Source: Lacinutrix sp. 5H-3-7-4
Lineage (GTDB): Bacteria; Bacteroidota; Bacteroidia; Flavobacteriales; Flavobacteriaceae
Length of the DNA stretch: 64,000 bases
Direction of reading: 5' to 3'
Assembly (NCBI RefSeq): GCF_000211855.2
Contig: NC_015638.1
Coordinates: 2,701,001-2,765,000, forward strand
Below, piece by piece: positions 6,901-60,867 of this stretch (position 1 is its first letter; each line of letters begins with the position of its first letter). The notes beneath the pieces are model-generated. The model saw nothing but the letters and a program-made list of their open reading frames with translations. It searched no databases and was not told where the DNA came from. The position numbers and the translations under genes were made by a program.

Positions 6901-8100
6901 TTATTTGTTTTCACTAATAATATCTAAAGTTTGCCTAATCCAATCTGTTTTAAAATCTAGAGTTATATCTGGTTTTATTCCTATACTTTCATATTGAAAA
7001 TATTTATGAAAATTCATATCTGTAGGAGTAACAGAAAAATATTTTGAAGGTGTTGTATAGCTTCTTCCGTAATTTAATCCATATGCAATAACGCCAAATG
7101 TAGTTTGCCCTAAATGTGTTGCGTGCTTGAGTTTTTTTAATTTTAAAGTAAATTGCTCGCCATTGCTAGCTGTAAAAGCATTTGTTAATATATATACATT
7201 TTTATGTTTTAAAAGTTTTATAAAAGGATCTGAATATTTTTTATTTCCTCCGGTGTTACTTCTTAAATCTACTATTATATTTTTTGCTGTTAATTTGTTT
7301 TTAGTTTCTTCATAGAAAGCTAATAAATCTTTCTTTTTACTATTACTAAAATTGGCAAAATATAAATACTGTGTATTCTCATTAAGTTGTTTAAAAGTAA
7401 AAGATTTTTGATTCTTTTTAATAAATTCAACATCGCTTGTGCCTTTCTTTTTATAACTCCATAATCTTCCATTTTCAAACGTTAAACTCTTTAATAATCT
7501 AGGTGTTTTATTCTCAAGTTTGTAGTGATAAATATTGTATTTATTATTAATAGTTTTGTATGCGTAGAAACTTATATCTCCAATTTCCCATTGTTTTAAA
7601 TTACTTTCAAGTATAACACCTATATATTGGTTTTTGTTATCATCATAATATATTCCAACTTTTAAAGATGTGCTGTAATTGTAAATACCTTCAATAGAAT
7701 TAGTTTTCTTTTGGCTTAATTCGTTTTTTAAATCTTCAATATTTCTATCTGTTTCTGGGTGATTAAAACCAATTTTTCTAGTATTTGAGTTTATATCTAA
7801 AAAGGGTTGTTTTATAGATAAACTTAAATGGTTGTCATTAATTAGGTTTGTTTGTTTTAATAAAAGTTTAAAGCAGGCTTCTATAGCAATTGGTTGTTTC
7901 ATTTGTAATGAAAGCATTTTATAAACAGTCTCAAAATTTTCTTTTTTATCTCCTTTTATTTGTTTTTTATAAGATGGCATTTTCTTTAATTTACTTACTA
8001 TAAAATCTAAGTCGGCTTTACAATTGCAGGTTTCGTTTTGTGTGAAAGCGAATGAAATTCCGAAGAAAAAAATTGTGCTAAAAGCAATTAAATGTTTCAT
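6901..8100 (-). CDS. Exported S41-like (tail-specific protease family) protein
   Basis: A 399-residue protein with a signal peptide (MKHLIAFSTIFFFGISFAF then TQNE), so it is exported. The C-terminal third looks like an S41 peptidase: NIIVDLRSNTGGN, then ILTNAFTASNGEQF with the likely nucleophile Ser, then GQTTFG. The first 240 residues are not recognised. No PDZ domain is evident, unlike C-terminal processing proteases, so the closer match is the TSPc domain alone. Substrate unknown. It is convergent with the his operon and separated from the upstream LytTR gene by 95 bases. Confidence 0.75.
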   Translation of the reverse strand: MKHLIAFSTIFFFGISFAFTQNETCNCKADLDFIVSKLKKMPSYKKQIKGDKKENFETVYKMLSLQMKQPIAIEACFKLLLKQTNLINDNHLSLSIKQPFLDINSNTRKIGFNHPETDRNIEDLKNELSQKKTNSIEGIYNYSTSLKVGIYYDDNKNQYIGVILESNLKQWEIGDISFYAYKTINNKYNIYHYKLENKTPRLLKSLTFENGRLWSYKKKGTSDVEFIKKNQKSFTFKQLNENTQYLYFANFSNSKKKDLLAFYEETKNKLTAKNIIVDLRSNTGGNKKYSDPFIKLLKHKNVYILTNAFTASNGEQFTLKLKKLKHATHLGQTTFGVIAYGLNYGRSYTTPSKYFSVTPTDMNFHKYFQYESIGIKPDITLDFKTDWIRQTLDIISENK

Positions 8101-51953: not shown

Positions 51954-52298
51954 CTATTTAATATGGCTCTTTTGTTCAGAAACAGCATAAATGCCCCAAT
52001 CTGCAATAGATTGCACTACAGGAATTAAAGTTTTACCAAAATCGGTTAACGAATATTCTACCTTTAAAGGTGGTTTAGAAGTGTATACCTTTCTTTTTAC
52101 AATACCATCTTCTTCTAAAGTTTTTAATTGTAAACTCAATGTACGCTCTGTAACTGTTGGCATTTCTTTTCTTAATTCATTATATCGGAGTGTTTTATCA
52201 ATTAAATGAAACATAATTACCGTTTTCCATTTTCCTCCAATAATTCCCATGGTTAAACTGGCACAACATGGATATTCCTTTCCTTTAAACGTATACAT
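51954..52298 (-). CDS. HxlR-family (DUF24) transcriptional regulator
   Basis: A 114-residue winged helix-turn-helix regulator. Seen: GIIGGKWKTVIMFHL, LRYNELRKEMPTVTERTLSLQLKTLEEDGIVKR (recognition helix and wing) and the late YSLTDFGKTL. A Cys pair at residues 11-12 (YPCCAS) lies where HxlR/YodB-type proteins keep a redox- or quinone-sensing Cys. It is divergent from a nitroreductase operon, with matching inverted repeats between them, so it very probably represses that operon and itself. Confidence 0.9.
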   Translation of the reverse strand: MYTFKGKEYPCCASLTMGIIGGKWKTVIMFHLIDKTLRYNELRKEMPTVTERTLSLQLKTLEEDGIVKRKVYTSKPPLKVEYSLTDFGKTLIPVVQSIADWGIYAVSEQKSHIK

Positions 52299-52337
52299 AA
52301 TTATTTTTTAAGTATTAAATCTTTGGCTAAGATAGAA

Positions 52338-52373
52338 TACTATACTTATTTATACAACTATACTTTTTATAGT
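52338..52373. promoter_or_regulatory. HxlR operator candidates near the regulator gene
   Basis: ACTATA-N5-TATAGT is present at 52357-52373 with spacer CTTTT, identical to the core at 52493-52511. Directly next to it an imperfect copy starts TACTATACTT at 52338. This pair lies 40-75 bases upstream of the hxlR ATG and suggests autoregulation. Confidence 0.6.
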
Positions 52374-52461
52374 AAATTTAACATTCAGCTGAATGTATTG
52401 ATTTTGTTGGGTTTACAAACTTTTTAAGTGTAATATTTTATACTATCCTTTTTGACCGTTA

Positions 52462-52511
52462 TTGTGAAAAATAGATACTACAATTACATTTGTACTATAC
52501 TTTTTATAGTA
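52462..52511 (+). promoter_or_regulatory. Nitroreductase operon promoter with HxlR operator on the start site
   Basis: TTG (52462-52464), exactly 20 bases, then TACATTTG (52485-52492), a full -33/-7 match. The inverted repeat TACTATA-N5-TATAGTA (52493-52511) begins at the next base and covers the expected transcription start. The same core with the same CTTTT spacer recurs at 52357. This is the layout expected for repression. Confidence 0.75.
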
Positions 52512-52544
52512 TAATTAATAATCAACTCAAAAAAACATATAATA

Positions 52545-53219
52545 ATGAATACACCAAACATTGCACAAGAAGATATTTTAAACGCATTTAACTACAGACA
52601 TGCTACTAAAGAATTTGATGCTACCAAAACATTAACTGATGAGCAAATCAATTTCATCTTAAAAACAGCGAATTTATCACCAAGTTCTTTTGGTTTTGAA
52701 CCTTGGCATTTTATAGTGGTACAAGACAAAGATTTACGCGAACTTTTAAAACCTGTAGCTTGGGGAGCACCAGTAAAACTAGACACTGCAAGTCACTTTA
52801 TTTTAGGTTTAGCAATGAAAGCGCCAATGGTAAAACACAATGCAGAATACATAGAACATATGATGAAAGACGTTAAGCAAATGCCAGAAGATGTTGTAGA
52901 AATGTATTCTAAATTTTACAGAGAGTTTCAAGAACGTGATTTTAACTTAGATTCAGATAAAAAATTATTCGATTGGTCATCAAAGCAAACGTATATTGCC
53001 TTAGGTAATATGATGACAGCTGCTGCTTTAACCGGAATCGATTCTTGTCCTATAGAAGGCTTTCATATTGAAGAAACTGAAGCTTTGTTAAGAGATAAGT
53101 TCGAAGTGGATACTGACAAATATGGAATTTCATTTATGGCTGCTTTTGGTTACAGAAAAGCAGATCCAGAATTCGGAAAATCAAGACGTAATTTTGAAGA
53201 TATTGTAACATTTAAGTAA
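52545..53219 (+). CDS. NfsB-type nitroreductase / NAD(P)H-quinone reductase
   Basis: A 224-residue FMN enzyme. FNYRHATKEFDATK carries the FMN-binding Arg-His region; LSPSSFGFEPWHFIVVQD and GIDSCPIEGFH match the NfsB group. Such enzymes reduce nitroaromatics, quinones and flavins. It is the first gene of a five-gene run (gaps 26, 20, 34 and 1 bases) controlled by a promoter with an HxlR site. This fits a response to quinones or other electrophiles. Confidence 0.92.
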   Translation: MNTPNIAQEDILNAFNYRHATKEFDATKTLTDEQINFILKTANLSPSSFGFEPWHFIVVQDKDLRELLKPVAWGAPVKLDTASHFILGLAMKAPMVKHNAEYIEHMMKDVKQMPEDVVEMYSKFYREFQERDFNLDSDKKLFDWSSKQTYIALGNMMTAAALTGIDSCPIEGFHIEETEALLRDKFEVDTDKYGISFMAAFGYRKADPEFGKSRRNFEDIVTFK

Positions 53220-56768: not shown

Positions 56769-56803
56769 AGAAGAAGTCACCATGTTGTGGCTTCTTCTAT
56801 TTT
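56769..56803 (+). terminator. Terminator after the nitroreductase operon
   Basis: A 12-bp stem with one G-T pair (AGAAGAAGTCAC with GTGGCTTCTTCT) around a 6-base loop, followed by ATTTT. The T run is short. It separates the operon from the AraC-type gene. Confidence 0.65.
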
Positions 56804-57721: not shown

Positions 57722-57790
57722 AAACCTCTTTTTTTACTAATACCACTTTGTTTTCTACCAAATAAAAGCTTGGTGTCTATTTTAAATTTG
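57722..57790 (+). promoter_or_regulatory. Activator-type promoter module, copy 1 (enoyl-CoA hydratase unit)
   Basis: AAACCT-N2-TTTTTTACTAA-N14-CTACCAAA (57722-57762), then 20 bases, then TAAATTTG (57783-57790). TACTAA (57735) and TACCAA (57756) are direct repeats 21 bp apart. The last bases AAA sit where other promoters here have the -33 TTG. 33 of 41 upstream positions are identical to copy 2 at 59788. Confidence 0.72.
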
Positions 57791-57832
57791 CAGTGTAATT
57801 AATACACACACAATAATTTAAAACATGACATC

Positions 57833-58678
57833 ATGAACTACAAGAACTTTCAAACATTTACCGCAACACAAAAAGGAGCAATATTAACCGTTGGCATTAA
57901 CTTCGGACCAGTAAACGTACAGGGACAAGAAATGCTAGCAGATTTAAGCAGTCTTTGCTTACGATTGGAACGCGATAGAAGTGTAAAAGTTGTAGTTTTT
58001 GAATCGTCTAATCCAGGATATTGGGTTTGCCATTATGATACCGATTTATTAAAAGATTTATCTACAGAAGCTGTTCCAAGAAATGAAATTCAGCTATTAG
58101 ACTTACAAGCTGTTTTAGAAAGATTAAGCAATGTACCACAAGCAACTATAGCAAAAATTGAAGGTTTTGCTCGTGGTGGCGGACACGAAATGGCATTAGC
58201 TTTAGATATGCGTTTTGCAGCCAGAGGAAAAGCCAAATTCATGCAAATGGAAGTAGGTATGGGCATTTTACCTTGTGGTGGTGGCGCATCACGTATGGCT
58301 AGACAAGCAGGTTTAGGAAAAGCATTAGAAATTATTTTAGGTGCTAGAGATTGGGATGCAGACGAAGCTGAAAAATTCGGAACCATAAACAAAGCTTTAA
58401 ATGCAGATGAAATTGGTCCTTATGTGAATGCTTTGGCAGAACGTATTTCAAAATTTCCTGCAGATTCTATTGCAGCTAGCAAACGCGCAGTTTATGCGTC
58501 TATAGACTTATCAATAAAAGACGCTTTAAAAGAAGAAGCGTACCAATTGTTTCAAGCAACCAGTAAAACACCTGCAGTAAAACGTTTTCAATATGCAGAT
58601 GATAATGGTGCTCAATTTGACCATAACAATCAAAAAAATTGGGAGCAAATGGTAATGGATATTCAAGCAGTAAATTAA
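57833..58678 (+). CDS. Enoyl-CoA hydratase/isomerase (crotonase) family protein
   Basis: A 281-residue crotonase. The oxyanion and catalytic regions are visible: AKIEGFARGGGHEMALALDMRFAA (first Glu) and FMQMEVGMGILPCGGGASR (second Glu), so a hydratase-type active site is retained. The substrate is unknown. It is the first gene after the AraC regulator, starts with a module-type promoter, and is followed after 38 bases by an oxidoreductase, suggesting they act together on one compound. Confidence 0.87.
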   Translation: MNYKNFQTFTATQKGAILTVGINFGPVNVQGQEMLADLSSLCLRLERDRSVKVVVFESSNPGYWVCHYDTDLLKDLSTEAVPRNEIQLLDLQAVLERLSNVPQATIAKIEGFARGGGHEMALALDMRFAARGKAKFMQMEVGMGILPCGGGASRMARQAGLGKALEIILGARDWDADEAEKFGTINKALNADEIGPYVNALAERISKFPADSIAASKRAVYASIDLSIKDALKEEAYQLFQATSKTPAVKRFQYADDNGAQFDHNNQKNWEQMVMDIQAVN

Positions 58679-58716
58679 TAAAAAACAATAATTATAAATT
58701 AAAAAAGAAGATAGAA

Positions 58717-59700
58717 ATGAAAGCAATGTTAATTAAAGAATACGGAGAAAATGGAAATTTCGAAGTTTCAGAAATAGCAAAACCAGAAGTAAAAGCGAAT
58801 CACGTATTAGTAAAAATAGCAGCATCAAGCGTAAATACTATTGATACTATGATTAAAAATATGGGATCAGATTTACCATTATCACCAGCTGCTCCAGCGT
58901 TGTTAGGTATGGATTTTTCAGGAACTGTTGAAGCTGTTGGAGAAGGAGTAACAGGTTATGCTGTTGGAGATGAAGTCTATGGTTGTGCTGGCGGACTTGC
59001 AGATTTACCAGGAACTTTAACCGAATATATTGTTGCAGATAGTAATTTAATGGCGCATAAGCCAAAAGATTTAACCATGCGAGAAACTGCAGCTTTACCA
59101 TTAGTAGCAATTACTGCTTACGAAGGTTTAACAAGAGCAGGAGTAAAAGCAGGACAAAAAGTATTGGTACATGGTGGTTCTGGAGGCGTTGGACACTTAG
59201 CTGTACAATTGGCTAAATATTTTGGTGCTGAAGTTTTTGCTACAGGTACAGGCGATAATCAAAAAGCTATTGTAGAAAAATTTGAAGCAACCTTTATAGA
59301 TTTTAAAACGGAAAAAGTAGCAGATTATACCGCAAAATATACCAATGGTGGTTTTGATGTGGTTTTTGATACGGTTGGTGGTGCAAATCTTACCAATTCT
59401 ATTGAATCAGTTGCTTTAAATGGACATATTTCTACTACAGTTTCATTATGTGAATTAGACTTAACGCCATTACATTTTAAAGGTGCATCCTTGCACGTAG
59501 TATTTATGTTAATCCCAATGTTGCATAATTTTAATAGAAATAAACACGGAAACATTTTAGAAACATTAGCTAAAATTTCAAACGAAGGACATTTAACACC
59601 AATTGTAGATGAAAATCAATTTTCATTAGAACAAGTTGGAGATGCTTATGCACATTTAGCAAGCGGAAAAGCTATTGGAAAAATAGTGGTAGAGCATTAA
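58717..59700 (+). CDS. NADPH-dependent quinone/enone oxidoreductase (MDR family)
   Basis: A 327-residue medium-chain reductase without zinc ligands. Seen: VLVKIAASSVNTIDTMIKNMG, LLGMDFSGTVEAVGEGV, LPLVAITAYEGLTRAG, the NADPH loop VHGGSGGVGHLAVQLAKYFG and the final GKAIGKIVVEH. ATG 58717 is chosen because MKAMLIKEY is the normal family start; the frame is open upstream to 58639 only by overlap with the hydratase. It shares only general family likeness with the 53246 protein. Confidence 0.88.
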   Translation: MKAMLIKEYGENGNFEVSEIAKPEVKANHVLVKIAASSVNTIDTMIKNMGSDLPLSPAAPALLGMDFSGTVEAVGEGVTGYAVGDEVYGCAGGLADLPGTLTEYIVADSNLMAHKPKDLTMRETAALPLVAITAYEGLTRAGVKAGQKVLVHGGSGGVGHLAVQLAKYFGAEVFATGTGDNQKAIVEKFEATFIDFKTEKVADYTAKYTNGGFDVVFDTVGGANLTNSIESVALNGHISTTVSLCELDLTPLHFKGASLHVVFMLIPMLHNFNRNKHGNILETLAKISNEGHLTPIVDENQFSLEQVGDAYAHLASGKAIGKIVVEH

Positions 59701-59708
59701 AAATAAAT

Positions 59709-59729
59709 GGATTTTTTATAAATCCTTTT
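59709..59729 (+). terminator. Weak terminator after the hydratase-oxidoreductase unit
   Basis: GGATTT and AAATCC pair around a 5-base loop and are followed by four T, nine bases after the stop. A stronger hairpin follows at 59749. Confidence 0.5.
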
Positions 59730-59748
59730 AAGTTGATTAGTAGTTAGA

Positions 59749-59773
59749 ATGCCTCTTTTTTAGGGGCATTTTT
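59749..59773 (+). terminator. Terminator upstream of the oxygenase promoter module
   Basis: ATGCCTC pairs with GGGGCAT (one T-G pair) around a T-rich loop and ends in five T. It should insulate the next unit. Confidence 0.7.
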
Positions 59774-59787
59774 CATTTACATACTGC

Positions 59788-59856
59788 AAACCTTGTTTTT
59801 TACTAAAACTACCATTTTTACTACCAAACACCATCTATCGTTTAGCCTTAATTTTG
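59788..59856 (+). promoter_or_regulatory. Activator-type promoter module, copy 2 (2OG oxygenase unit)
   Basis: AAACCT-N2-TTTTTTACTAA-N14-CTACCAAA (59788-59828), 20 bases, then TAATTTTG (59849-59856). All distances equal those of copy 1, including the 21-bp direct repeat (TACTAA 59801, TACCAA 59822). The ATG follows 48 bases later (42 in copy 1). Confidence 0.72.
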
Positions 59857-59904: not shown

Positions 59905-60867
59905 ATGAAAACAATAACAAATACAAATGCACTAGAACAAGCACGTGCACTTACACAACCAACTCGCGAAGCTTCATTAAAACGTGAACCTTCTGTATCT
60001 CATTTTTGGAATAGCAACAGAAAATTACTGGAAGAAGCATGGGCAACATGGGAAATGGAAAACAAAGACAATTTACTAATTCCTGATGAAACACTACTTG
60101 ATCCAAAATTGCGAAAAGCAATAAATGACGCTTGGGAAAACCCAGAAAAAGAAAATGCTGTTGCCGATTTATGGGAAGAAATTATTCCAGGCGTTTATGT
60201 AGCACAATTTTTTGATCTTGAACGTTTAGCGGAATTCCGTAAGTATTTAGAAGATGCAGTAAATTCTGAAATCCCAAAACGTGCACCTTATGGTATTCAA
60301 TTAAATCGTTATGGAATGATGTTAGATGAGCGTTCTGAAGGTCATTTAGCTGCACCAAGTTTCCAAGCCTTTTATAACGACATGATGGATCGTTATATGC
60401 GTCCAATTGCCCGTTTATTGCTTGGTACTTATGGTTACGATAACCAAACGTTTGGTTTTTCAATTCAATATAATCCAGATAAGGATAAAGATTTACATGC
60501 ACACACAGATGCTTCAGCAGCGACTTTAAATATTAATATTAACTTACCTAATGAAGTATTTACAGGATCTGAAGTTGATTTCTATGATAAAGCTTCCGGA
60601 AAAACAGTGCAAACCATTTTTGAACCAGGAAAAGCAATCCTTCACAGAGGTAATGTGCCACATGCTACACATCCAATTACTAGTGGACAACGTAGTAACT
60701 TGGTAGTTTGGTTATACGGAGATCAAATGCAAATTCCTCGTGGTAGTACTAGTAGCTACGGAAATATCAGTAGTAACACAATCAAAGATGTTGCATTAGA
60801 AAGCGTTACAGCGCGCCAACGTTGGAGCTTACCAGATGGACCAAAAGATACAGCTGCACCGTTTTAA
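59905..60867 (+). CDS. 2-oxoglutarate/Fe(II)-dependent oxygenase
   Basis: A 320-residue oxygenase with a C-terminal double-stranded beta-helix of the P4Hc type. The iron ligands are H200 and D202 (HTD in LHAHTDASAATLNINI) and the distal His in RGNVPHATHPI; the 2OG-binding Arg is in GQRSNLVVWL. No signal peptide, so cytosolic. The N-terminal about 100 residues (SVSHFWNSNRKLLEEAW) are not recognised. The substrate is unknown; its promoter links it to the AraC regulator and the hydratase-oxidoreductase pair. Confidence 0.85.
   Translation: MKTITNTNALEQARALTQPTREASLKREPSVSHFWNSNRKLLEEAWATWEMENKDNLLIPDETLLDPKLRKAINDAWENPEKENAVADLWEEIIPGVYVAQFFDLERLAEFRKYLEDAVNSEIPKRAPYGIQLNRYGMMLDERSEGHLAAPSFQAFYNDMMDRYMRPIARLLLGTYGYDNQTFGFSIQYNPDKDKDLHAHTDASAATLNININLPNEVFTGSEVDFYDKASGKTVQTIFEPGKAILHRGNVPHATHPITSGQRSNLVVWLYGDQMQIPRGSTSSYGNISSNTIKDVALESVTARQRWSLPDGPKDTAAPF

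Follow-up and report, generated by a model that had tools for sequence, protein, structure and literature searches.

Two 41-bp sequence modules of Lacinutrix sp. 5H-3-7-4 are most probably operators of the AraC-family regulator encoded next to them, through which the neighbouring enzyme genes would be activated; we put the probability of this interpretation at about 0.88. Both modules lie within a stretch of 64,000 nucleotides (contig NC_015638.1, positions 2,701,001 to 2,765,000), referred to as the window in the following and numbered from its first letter. The operator interpretation is favoured because of the co-occurrence of module and regulator, the occurrence of the module in front of several unrelated targets, the conservation of module and -7 box over that of the spacer between them and a switch of the module's sequence class together with a paralogous regulator. 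The local regulon would comprise a hydratase-oxidoreductase unit and an oxygenase gene with one operator each (Table 1), and none at the regulator's own promoter, where no module was detected; likewise, no third module was found in the pattern searches of window and genome.

Structure of the module and promoter geometry

Direct inspection of the sequence reproduced the similarity that had been described in a preceding analysis of these letters alone (the sequence-only reading): the two modules agree at 33 of 41 positions, in both copies exactly 20 bases follow before a full TAnnTTTG box (TAAATTTG and TAATTTTG, respectively), and TACTAA (57735) and TACCAA (57756) are 21 bp apart, with the same spacing in the second copy. 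A first alignment comprised 27 modules, taken from the window and from 16 relatives; the anatomy was then deduced from 109 modules, namely the two of the window and 107 which reached at least 25 bits in named loci, training contigs included. Their consensus is CCTtnTTTTTTACtAAa-Acca-CntTtTTTtnTACcaAa, followed by 20 poorly conserved bases and TAanTTTG. The self-identity of the half-sites within this set peaks at a shift of 21 (0.69) and amounts to 0.48 at shift 20 and 0.50 at shift 22. The module thus consists of a pair of 17-bp half-sites with a period of exactly 21 bp, and the downstream one occupies the -33 place. Counted from the -7 box, the halves would extend from about -69 to -53 and from about -48 to -32. 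Aligned by their CC(T) pieces, the half-sites would be shifted by 18 bp; as the self-identity at this shift reached 0.55 only, this alternative was rejected in favour of the 21-bp period. A transcribed RNA element was rejected because the module is located upstream of the -7 box. In three loci (L148, L151, L183) a third half-site-like copy (CCTAATTTTTTACTAA or CCTAAATTTTTACTAA) precedes the module at a distance of about 18 bp.

Promoters of Bacteroidetes are of the -33/-7 type. The sequence-only reading had stated that other promoters of the window carry a TTG at -33 and that the modules have AAA instead. Ten TAnnTTTG boxes placed upstream of genes in the window were checked, eight of them besides the module promoters. 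For the other promoters the claim was only partly true: a TTG was found 22-23 bases before the box in three of the eight and at 26 bases in a fourth. The statement on the module promoters stood: a single one of the 109 modules has a TTG at offsets 26-32, and AAA occupies offsets 28-30 in 78 of them. The proximal half-site ends at the position where the -33 TTG would be expected.

When the window was searched with the pattern shared by both copies and up to three mismatches were allowed, the two modules were the sole matches (mean of 100 shuffles: 0.00). The pattern had been derived from these data, and the evidential weight is therefore carried by the held-out tests. Within the 3.3-Mb single-contig genome, module and box together were matched with no or one mismatch by the two modules alone; one further match with three mismatches and an imperfect box occurs elsewhere.

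Conservation of the module in held-out loci

A protein search of named genomes yielded 80 loci, 65 of which contain held-out homologues of the regulator with 44-98% identity; 13 loci on contigs of training genomes and two partial matches (L222, 33%; L223, 29%) were left out. With a matrix of the module alone, i.e., without the box, which was trained on 26 modules, 58 of the 65 held-out loci reached 25 bits, and after reversal of all 80 loci nine matches exceeded 14 bits, the highest of them at 20.5. Of these held-out loci, 82 of the 88 modules with at least 25 bits are followed by a full TAnnTTTG at offset 51 and two at offset 50; of the other four, three have no full box and one represents a shifted second reading. 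Among the matches between 14 and 25 bits the box is found at 51 in 15 of 17.

The bare pattern TAC-N18-TAC-N24-TAnnTTTG was present within 700 bp behind the regulator gene in 60 of the 65 loci exactly and in two more with one mismatch. The three failures are L215, where only 78 bases are left on the contig, L205, in which the gap is one base shorter, and L192, whose module lies 2.4 kb further away. Other gaps from 18 to 30 were matched in at most one of the 65 loci, and other periods in none (16-20 and 22-27), apart from a period of 15 in 13 loci, which is taken to be the internal TAC of the same modules. Reversed and opposite-strand DNA gave no match of the bare pattern over 921,049 bases.

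Co-occurrence of module and regulator

Homologues with less than 40% identity had initially been listed together with the regulator (38 of 299 family genomes at E <= 1e-30). They were rejected as the same regulator, for those examined fall into the group of a paralogue, AraC2, mostly with an operator of its own. Carriers were consequently defined by a regulator of at least 47% identity, which applies to 17 of the 299 genomes. Besides the own genome, all 16 regions that carry the regulator in relatives contain the module, and TAnnTTTG follows it at an unchanged distance. Two carriers (G195, G050) possess one further module before a gene of the short-chain dehydrogenase/reductase (SDR) type, the one in G195 having one base more.

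As the sequence-only reading had suggested, genome and relatives were searched for the module, for which a 71-position sequence model was built from 26 modules and run on the 17 carrier genomes. Among the 150 best first-look candidates scored per genome, strong matches were confined to the regulator's cluster: all 28 sites at E <= 1.3e-8 are located there (26 of them training sites), and those ranking next, down to E 6.6e-4, are situated near it as well (e.g., AraC2-type sites). The two modules of the own genome scored 5.9e-15 and 1.3e-13, and five other, partial matches in it remained at chance level (0.027-0.066). The two strong sites that did not originate from the training set are part of an additional copy of the cluster in G227. 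This copy (G227:C1:4757983-4762007) is degraded, with stops in the oxygenase and regulator matches; its two operators still score 2.2e-16 and 7.5e-13.

Thirty genomes were selected from the 282 of 299 without the regulator, and 28 of them showed some match at E <= 0.1, mostly a short one. Five of the scored candidates fell below E 1e-3, two in G180, one each in G242 and G287 and a partial one in G020. Whole-model matches (G180, G242, G287, G063, G274) lie beside a second regulator gene or precede the targets in G180, where sites of the sister class are found before nitroreductase and oxygenase genes; a few near-full-length matches, e.g., in G237 (E 0.05) and G072 (E 0.07), are at chance level.

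In these sequence comparisons the module follows the regulator rather than one target gene. Genes behind modules encode hydratase, oxygenase, oxidoreductase, SDR, a bestrophin-type membrane protein, a DUF1330 protein and a SnoaL-like protein, and next to distant homologues of the regulator (L079, L198, L210, L220) the module precedes the regulator gene itself or a nearby SDR gene. Thirteen of the 299 genomes encode the hydratase (E <= 1e-60), and all of them also have the regulator. The oxygenase is present in 20 genomes, comprising 16 carriers and four without the regulator (G091, G286, G237, G180). In G091, which belongs to the same genus and whose oxygenase is 95% identical, neither a module nor an alignable remnant of it was found before the oxygenase gene; no module precedes this gene in G286 and G237 either, G286 having a sister-class site beside AraC2. 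At the respective locus of G091 (L080), regulator, hydratase, oxidoreductase and module are all missing together, and the oxygenase gene lies about 180 bp behind a DUF4437 gene. Several carriers have an oxygenase gene without its own module, which follows the hydratase gene (e.g., L074, L076).

Within 31 loci with two modules, the copies share an identity of 0.68 in the module and 0.86 in the box, compared to 0.31 in the spacer and 0.30 in the upstream flank. L148 and L151 lack the hydratase and oxidoreductase genes, and an oxygenase-type spacer follows their hydratase-type module; such hybrid promoters (near 7885) would be expected from recombination between the two modules. The first module of L145 (near 7898) runs into a remnant of the oxidoreductase gene and the hydratase gene is absent, as if recombination or loss had set in at this module.

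A paralogous regulator with a sister operator

The paralogue AraC2, seen with an operator class of its own in L064, L066, L067, L070, L072, L082, L114 and others, shares about 36% identity with the regulator. In many relatives its gene and a nitroreductase gene are divergently arranged; in the own genome the paralogue was not found at E <= 1e-30. Among 31 AraC2 loci, defined by tblastn matches of at least 50% identity and searched over 600 bp upstream, 24 have an operator of the same geometry on the divergent side and seven do not. These amount to 18 distinct sites, 17 exact ones and one with one mismatch. The two operator classes differ in the base before TAC, which is a purine in 16 and 15 of the 17 distinct exact AraC2 sites at the two half-sites and a pyrimidine in 97 and 92 of 101 sites of the first class. 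The corresponding protein groups (17 and 19 sequences) differ at mostly fixed positions of the helix-turn-helix (HTH) region; for instance, D214/N215 are replaced by P/T and S264/N268 by V/S.

The regulator protein

Both domains of the regulator are recognised by Pfam, the HTH with 52.9 bits (PF12833, cut-off 33.6) and 27.7 bits (PF00165, cut-off 26.6) and the cupin with 29.9 bits (PF02311, cut-off 21.1). The structural model (mean predicted local distance difference test score, pLDDT, 78.8; predicted template modelling score, pTM, 0.56) matched solved AraC-type DNA-binding domains in a fold search (3lsg_A; target-based template modelling score, TMt, 0.90; root-mean-square deviation 1.2), and its N-terminal part matched the regulatory domain of RhaR (TMt 0.63-0.70) and the dimerisation domain of AraC (0.59-0.66). 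Whole-chain matches superpose poorly (query-based score, TMq, 0.32-0.38), so that the fold search supports the domains alone. All 30 aligned homologues, with identities down to 46%, retain C23, the only cysteine of the window protein; a pattern located it in 74 of 78 named homologues, and the remaining four also have a cysteine at that place. When these 78 were each read to the first stop, 56 contained one cysteine and 22 two or three. Damaged regulator genes were observed in L022 (G087), with a stop at codon 276, and in L191, which is interrupted with its first stop after 221 codons; the operators persist at both loci.

Proposed mode of action and alternative explanations

That the regulator binds at the two modules and that its regulon includes at least the hydratase, oxidoreductase and oxygenase genes had been proposed in the sequence-only reading, and this proposal is strongly supported by the comparison, from which we infer binding, dimerisation and activation. 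Orthologues that keep the regulator and lack the module would speak against it; the module was seen in 16 of 16 regions and its pattern in 62 of 65 held-out loci. A dimer of the regulator would bind head-to-tail on the two half-sites, which at 21 bp lie two helical turns apart on the same face of the DNA. As the proximal half-site stands in the -33 place and ends 20 bases before TAnnTTTG, the bound protein would take over the missing -33 contact: its proximal subunit would recruit RNA polymerase in the manner of the class II activation known from AraC at araI1-I2.

The regulator might also own the module and repress, by covering the -33 region and blocking the polymerase until an inducer releases it. 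The overlap of the proximal half-site with the -33 region is compatible with such a function; however, a fixed distance to the -7 box would be dispensable for repression, and it was nevertheless kept in 82 of 88 held-out modules, and the promoters look weak unaided given the lack of a -33 TTG in 108 of 109 modules, which makes repression improbable. It is very unlikely that the module belongs to another DNA-binding protein, such as HxlR, or constitutes an extended promoter element of an alternative sigma factor, its link to the regulator being a matter of synteny. An HxlR gene is indeed close by in the window and in several relatives, but modules are present where no HxlR gene was found (L064, L065, L069), G091 lacks the module while it has HxlR and oxygenase genes and no regulator, and the sequence class of the module changes with the class of the regulator. 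A recent segment duplication alone, which would render the promoters alike without any function, could draw on the short distance between the two copies. It is already contradicted by the two-module loci, where spacer and flank agree at about 0.30 only and module and box at 0.68 and 0.86, and its probability is negligible.

Several observations weigh against the operator interpretation or diminish the force of the counts. The half-site self-identity has a side peak at shift 18 (0.55). Seven of the 65 held-out loci stayed below 25 bits; four of them (L190, L192, L211, L219) have weaker matches of 15-24 bits with the box at offset 51, and for L196, L215 and L217 the matrix found nothing above 14 bits. 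The box is one base nearer in L205 and in one module of L210 and one base further in one module of L220, and L163, L145 and L214 each have a module that lacks a full box at 51. Before the oxygenase gene the first half-site is degenerate (CCTTGAAAT...) in several loci of Maribacter, Zobellia, Olleya, Lacinutrix and Ulvibacter. Moreover, the counts are no independent trials, given that many loci share descent and that the whole cluster may be mobile as a unit. The 26 training sites among the 28 strong genome-wide sites match by construction, and the best 150 first-look candidates were scored per genome, by which weaker sites elsewhere could be missed.

Target genes and neighbourhood

Coordinates of all features are listed in Table 1. 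The oxidoreductase gene starts 38 bp behind the hydratase gene and both probably form one operon. A terminator-like hairpin separates this unit from the oxygenase gene, and module 2 therefore probably starts its own transcript. The best PDB match of the oxygenase is a lysyl hydroxylase (E 9.7e-06); its OGFOD2-like match is below the Pfam cut-off.

Table 1. Positions of the predicted operators, promoters and genes in the window.
Feature	Position	Strand	Remarks
Operator module 1 (41 bp), predicted	57722..57762	+	precedes hydratase-oxidoreductase unit
Module 1, distal 17-bp half-site	57725..57741	+	21-bp direct-repeat peak across 109 modules
Module 1, proximal 17-bp half-site	57746..57762	+	in -33 region
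Hydratase promoter, -7 box TAAATTTG	57783..57790	+	
Operator module 2 (41 bp), predicted	59788..59828	+	precedes oxygenase
Module 2, distal half-site	59791..59807	+	21-bp self-match across modules
Module 2, proximal half-site	59812..59828	+	21-bp self-match across modules
Oxygenase promoter, -7 box TAATTTTG	59849..59856	+	
AraC-family regulator, 287 aa	56835..57698	+	N-terminal cupin (AraC_binding), C-terminal double HTH (HTH_18); single Cys, residue 23
Enoyl-CoA hydratase/isomerase-family protein, predicted target	57833..58678	+	
MDR-type oxidoreductase	58717..59700	+	PIG3-like, below that family's cut-off; quinone-reductase type
Putative Fe(II)/2-oxoglutarate-type oxygenase, predicted target	59905..60867	+	
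Terminator-like hairpin	56769..56798	+	precedes regulator gene
Terminator-like hairpin with T-rich tail	59746..59772	+	-14.3 kcal/mol, z -5.56; just before module 2

The neighbourhood holds genes for a nitroreductase, quinone-reductase-type oxidoreductases, HxlR, a flavodoxin-fold reductase and an antiporter. Because of this gene content, an oxidant or electrophile sensed at the invariant C23 may tentatively be considered as the signal, a possibility we regard as doubtful; the signal may act on the cupin domain or on C23. Slightly more speculative is the composite picture of a Flavobacteriaceae regulon in which a C23 activator would sense an oxidant or electrophile and drive promoters without -33 element, accompanied, in the cluster of many relatives, by a paralogue whose operator has an identical geometry and is distinguished mainly by a pyrimidine/purine switch before each TAC. 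At 51954-52545 of the window the nitroreductase gene faces the HxlR gene, and many relatives have AraC2 and its operator there, which suggests an exchange of the regulator.

Comparison with known systems and implications

Of an AraC/XylS class II system, the HTH, the cupin, the 21-bp repeat and a proximal half-site over the -35/-33 region with a fixed distance to the core promoter were found. AraC itself binds at araI1-I2 of Escherichia coli to 17-bp half-sites which form a direct repeat 21 bp apart, with the proximal one at the -35 region (class II). The window encodes a cupin and double-HTH protein alike; its half-sites differ in sequence, the core promoter has a TAnnTTTG -7 box instead of a -10 element, and no sugar operon is involved.

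The motifs predicted for the hybrid two-component systems (HTCS) of Bacteroides thetaiotaomicron are direct repeats whose tandem sites lie 21 bp apart on average (PMC3878776). These systems share the AraC-type DNA-binding domain and repeats of about 21 bp; they differ in their periplasmic sensor, kinase and receiver domains and in their role in polysaccharide use, whereas the window encodes a 287-aa one-component protein in which Pfam recognises cupin and HTH alone, and which is thus no HTCS. CphR of Rhodococcus is an AraC-type activator with two imperfect 15-bp direct repeats from -35 to -69 (PMC6205950). It is comparable in that its sites lie beside its own gene and an oxygenase is controlled, and distinct in its phylum, its repeat TGCA-N6-GGNTA and its phenol signal. 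In RclR, the AraC-family protein by which E. coli senses hypochlorous acid, Cys-21 and Cys-89 form a disulfide (PMC7464077). Common features are the family, an N-terminal cysteine (Cys-21 compared to Cys-23 here) and redox genes nearby; an RclR-type sensor needs two cysteines, and the window protein has C23 as its single one.

The kind of system is hence already known, and the regulon described here is new and well delimited. In titles and abstract starts of the open-licence literature this regulator and its operator were not found described, which is weak evidence of absence. To our knowledge, base-level definitions of activator sites are rare in Flavobacteriia. In the present case the half-sites, their period and their distance from the -7 box could be fixed in many genera by comparison alone, which also names a likely regulator with its local regulon. 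The comparison further displays promoters of the phylum Bacteroidota with an activator site in the -33 place, and the paralogue pair of two regulators and two operator classes provides material for studies on the DNA choice of AraC proteins. Once the inducer is known, regulator and promoter could become an inducible system for flavobacteria.

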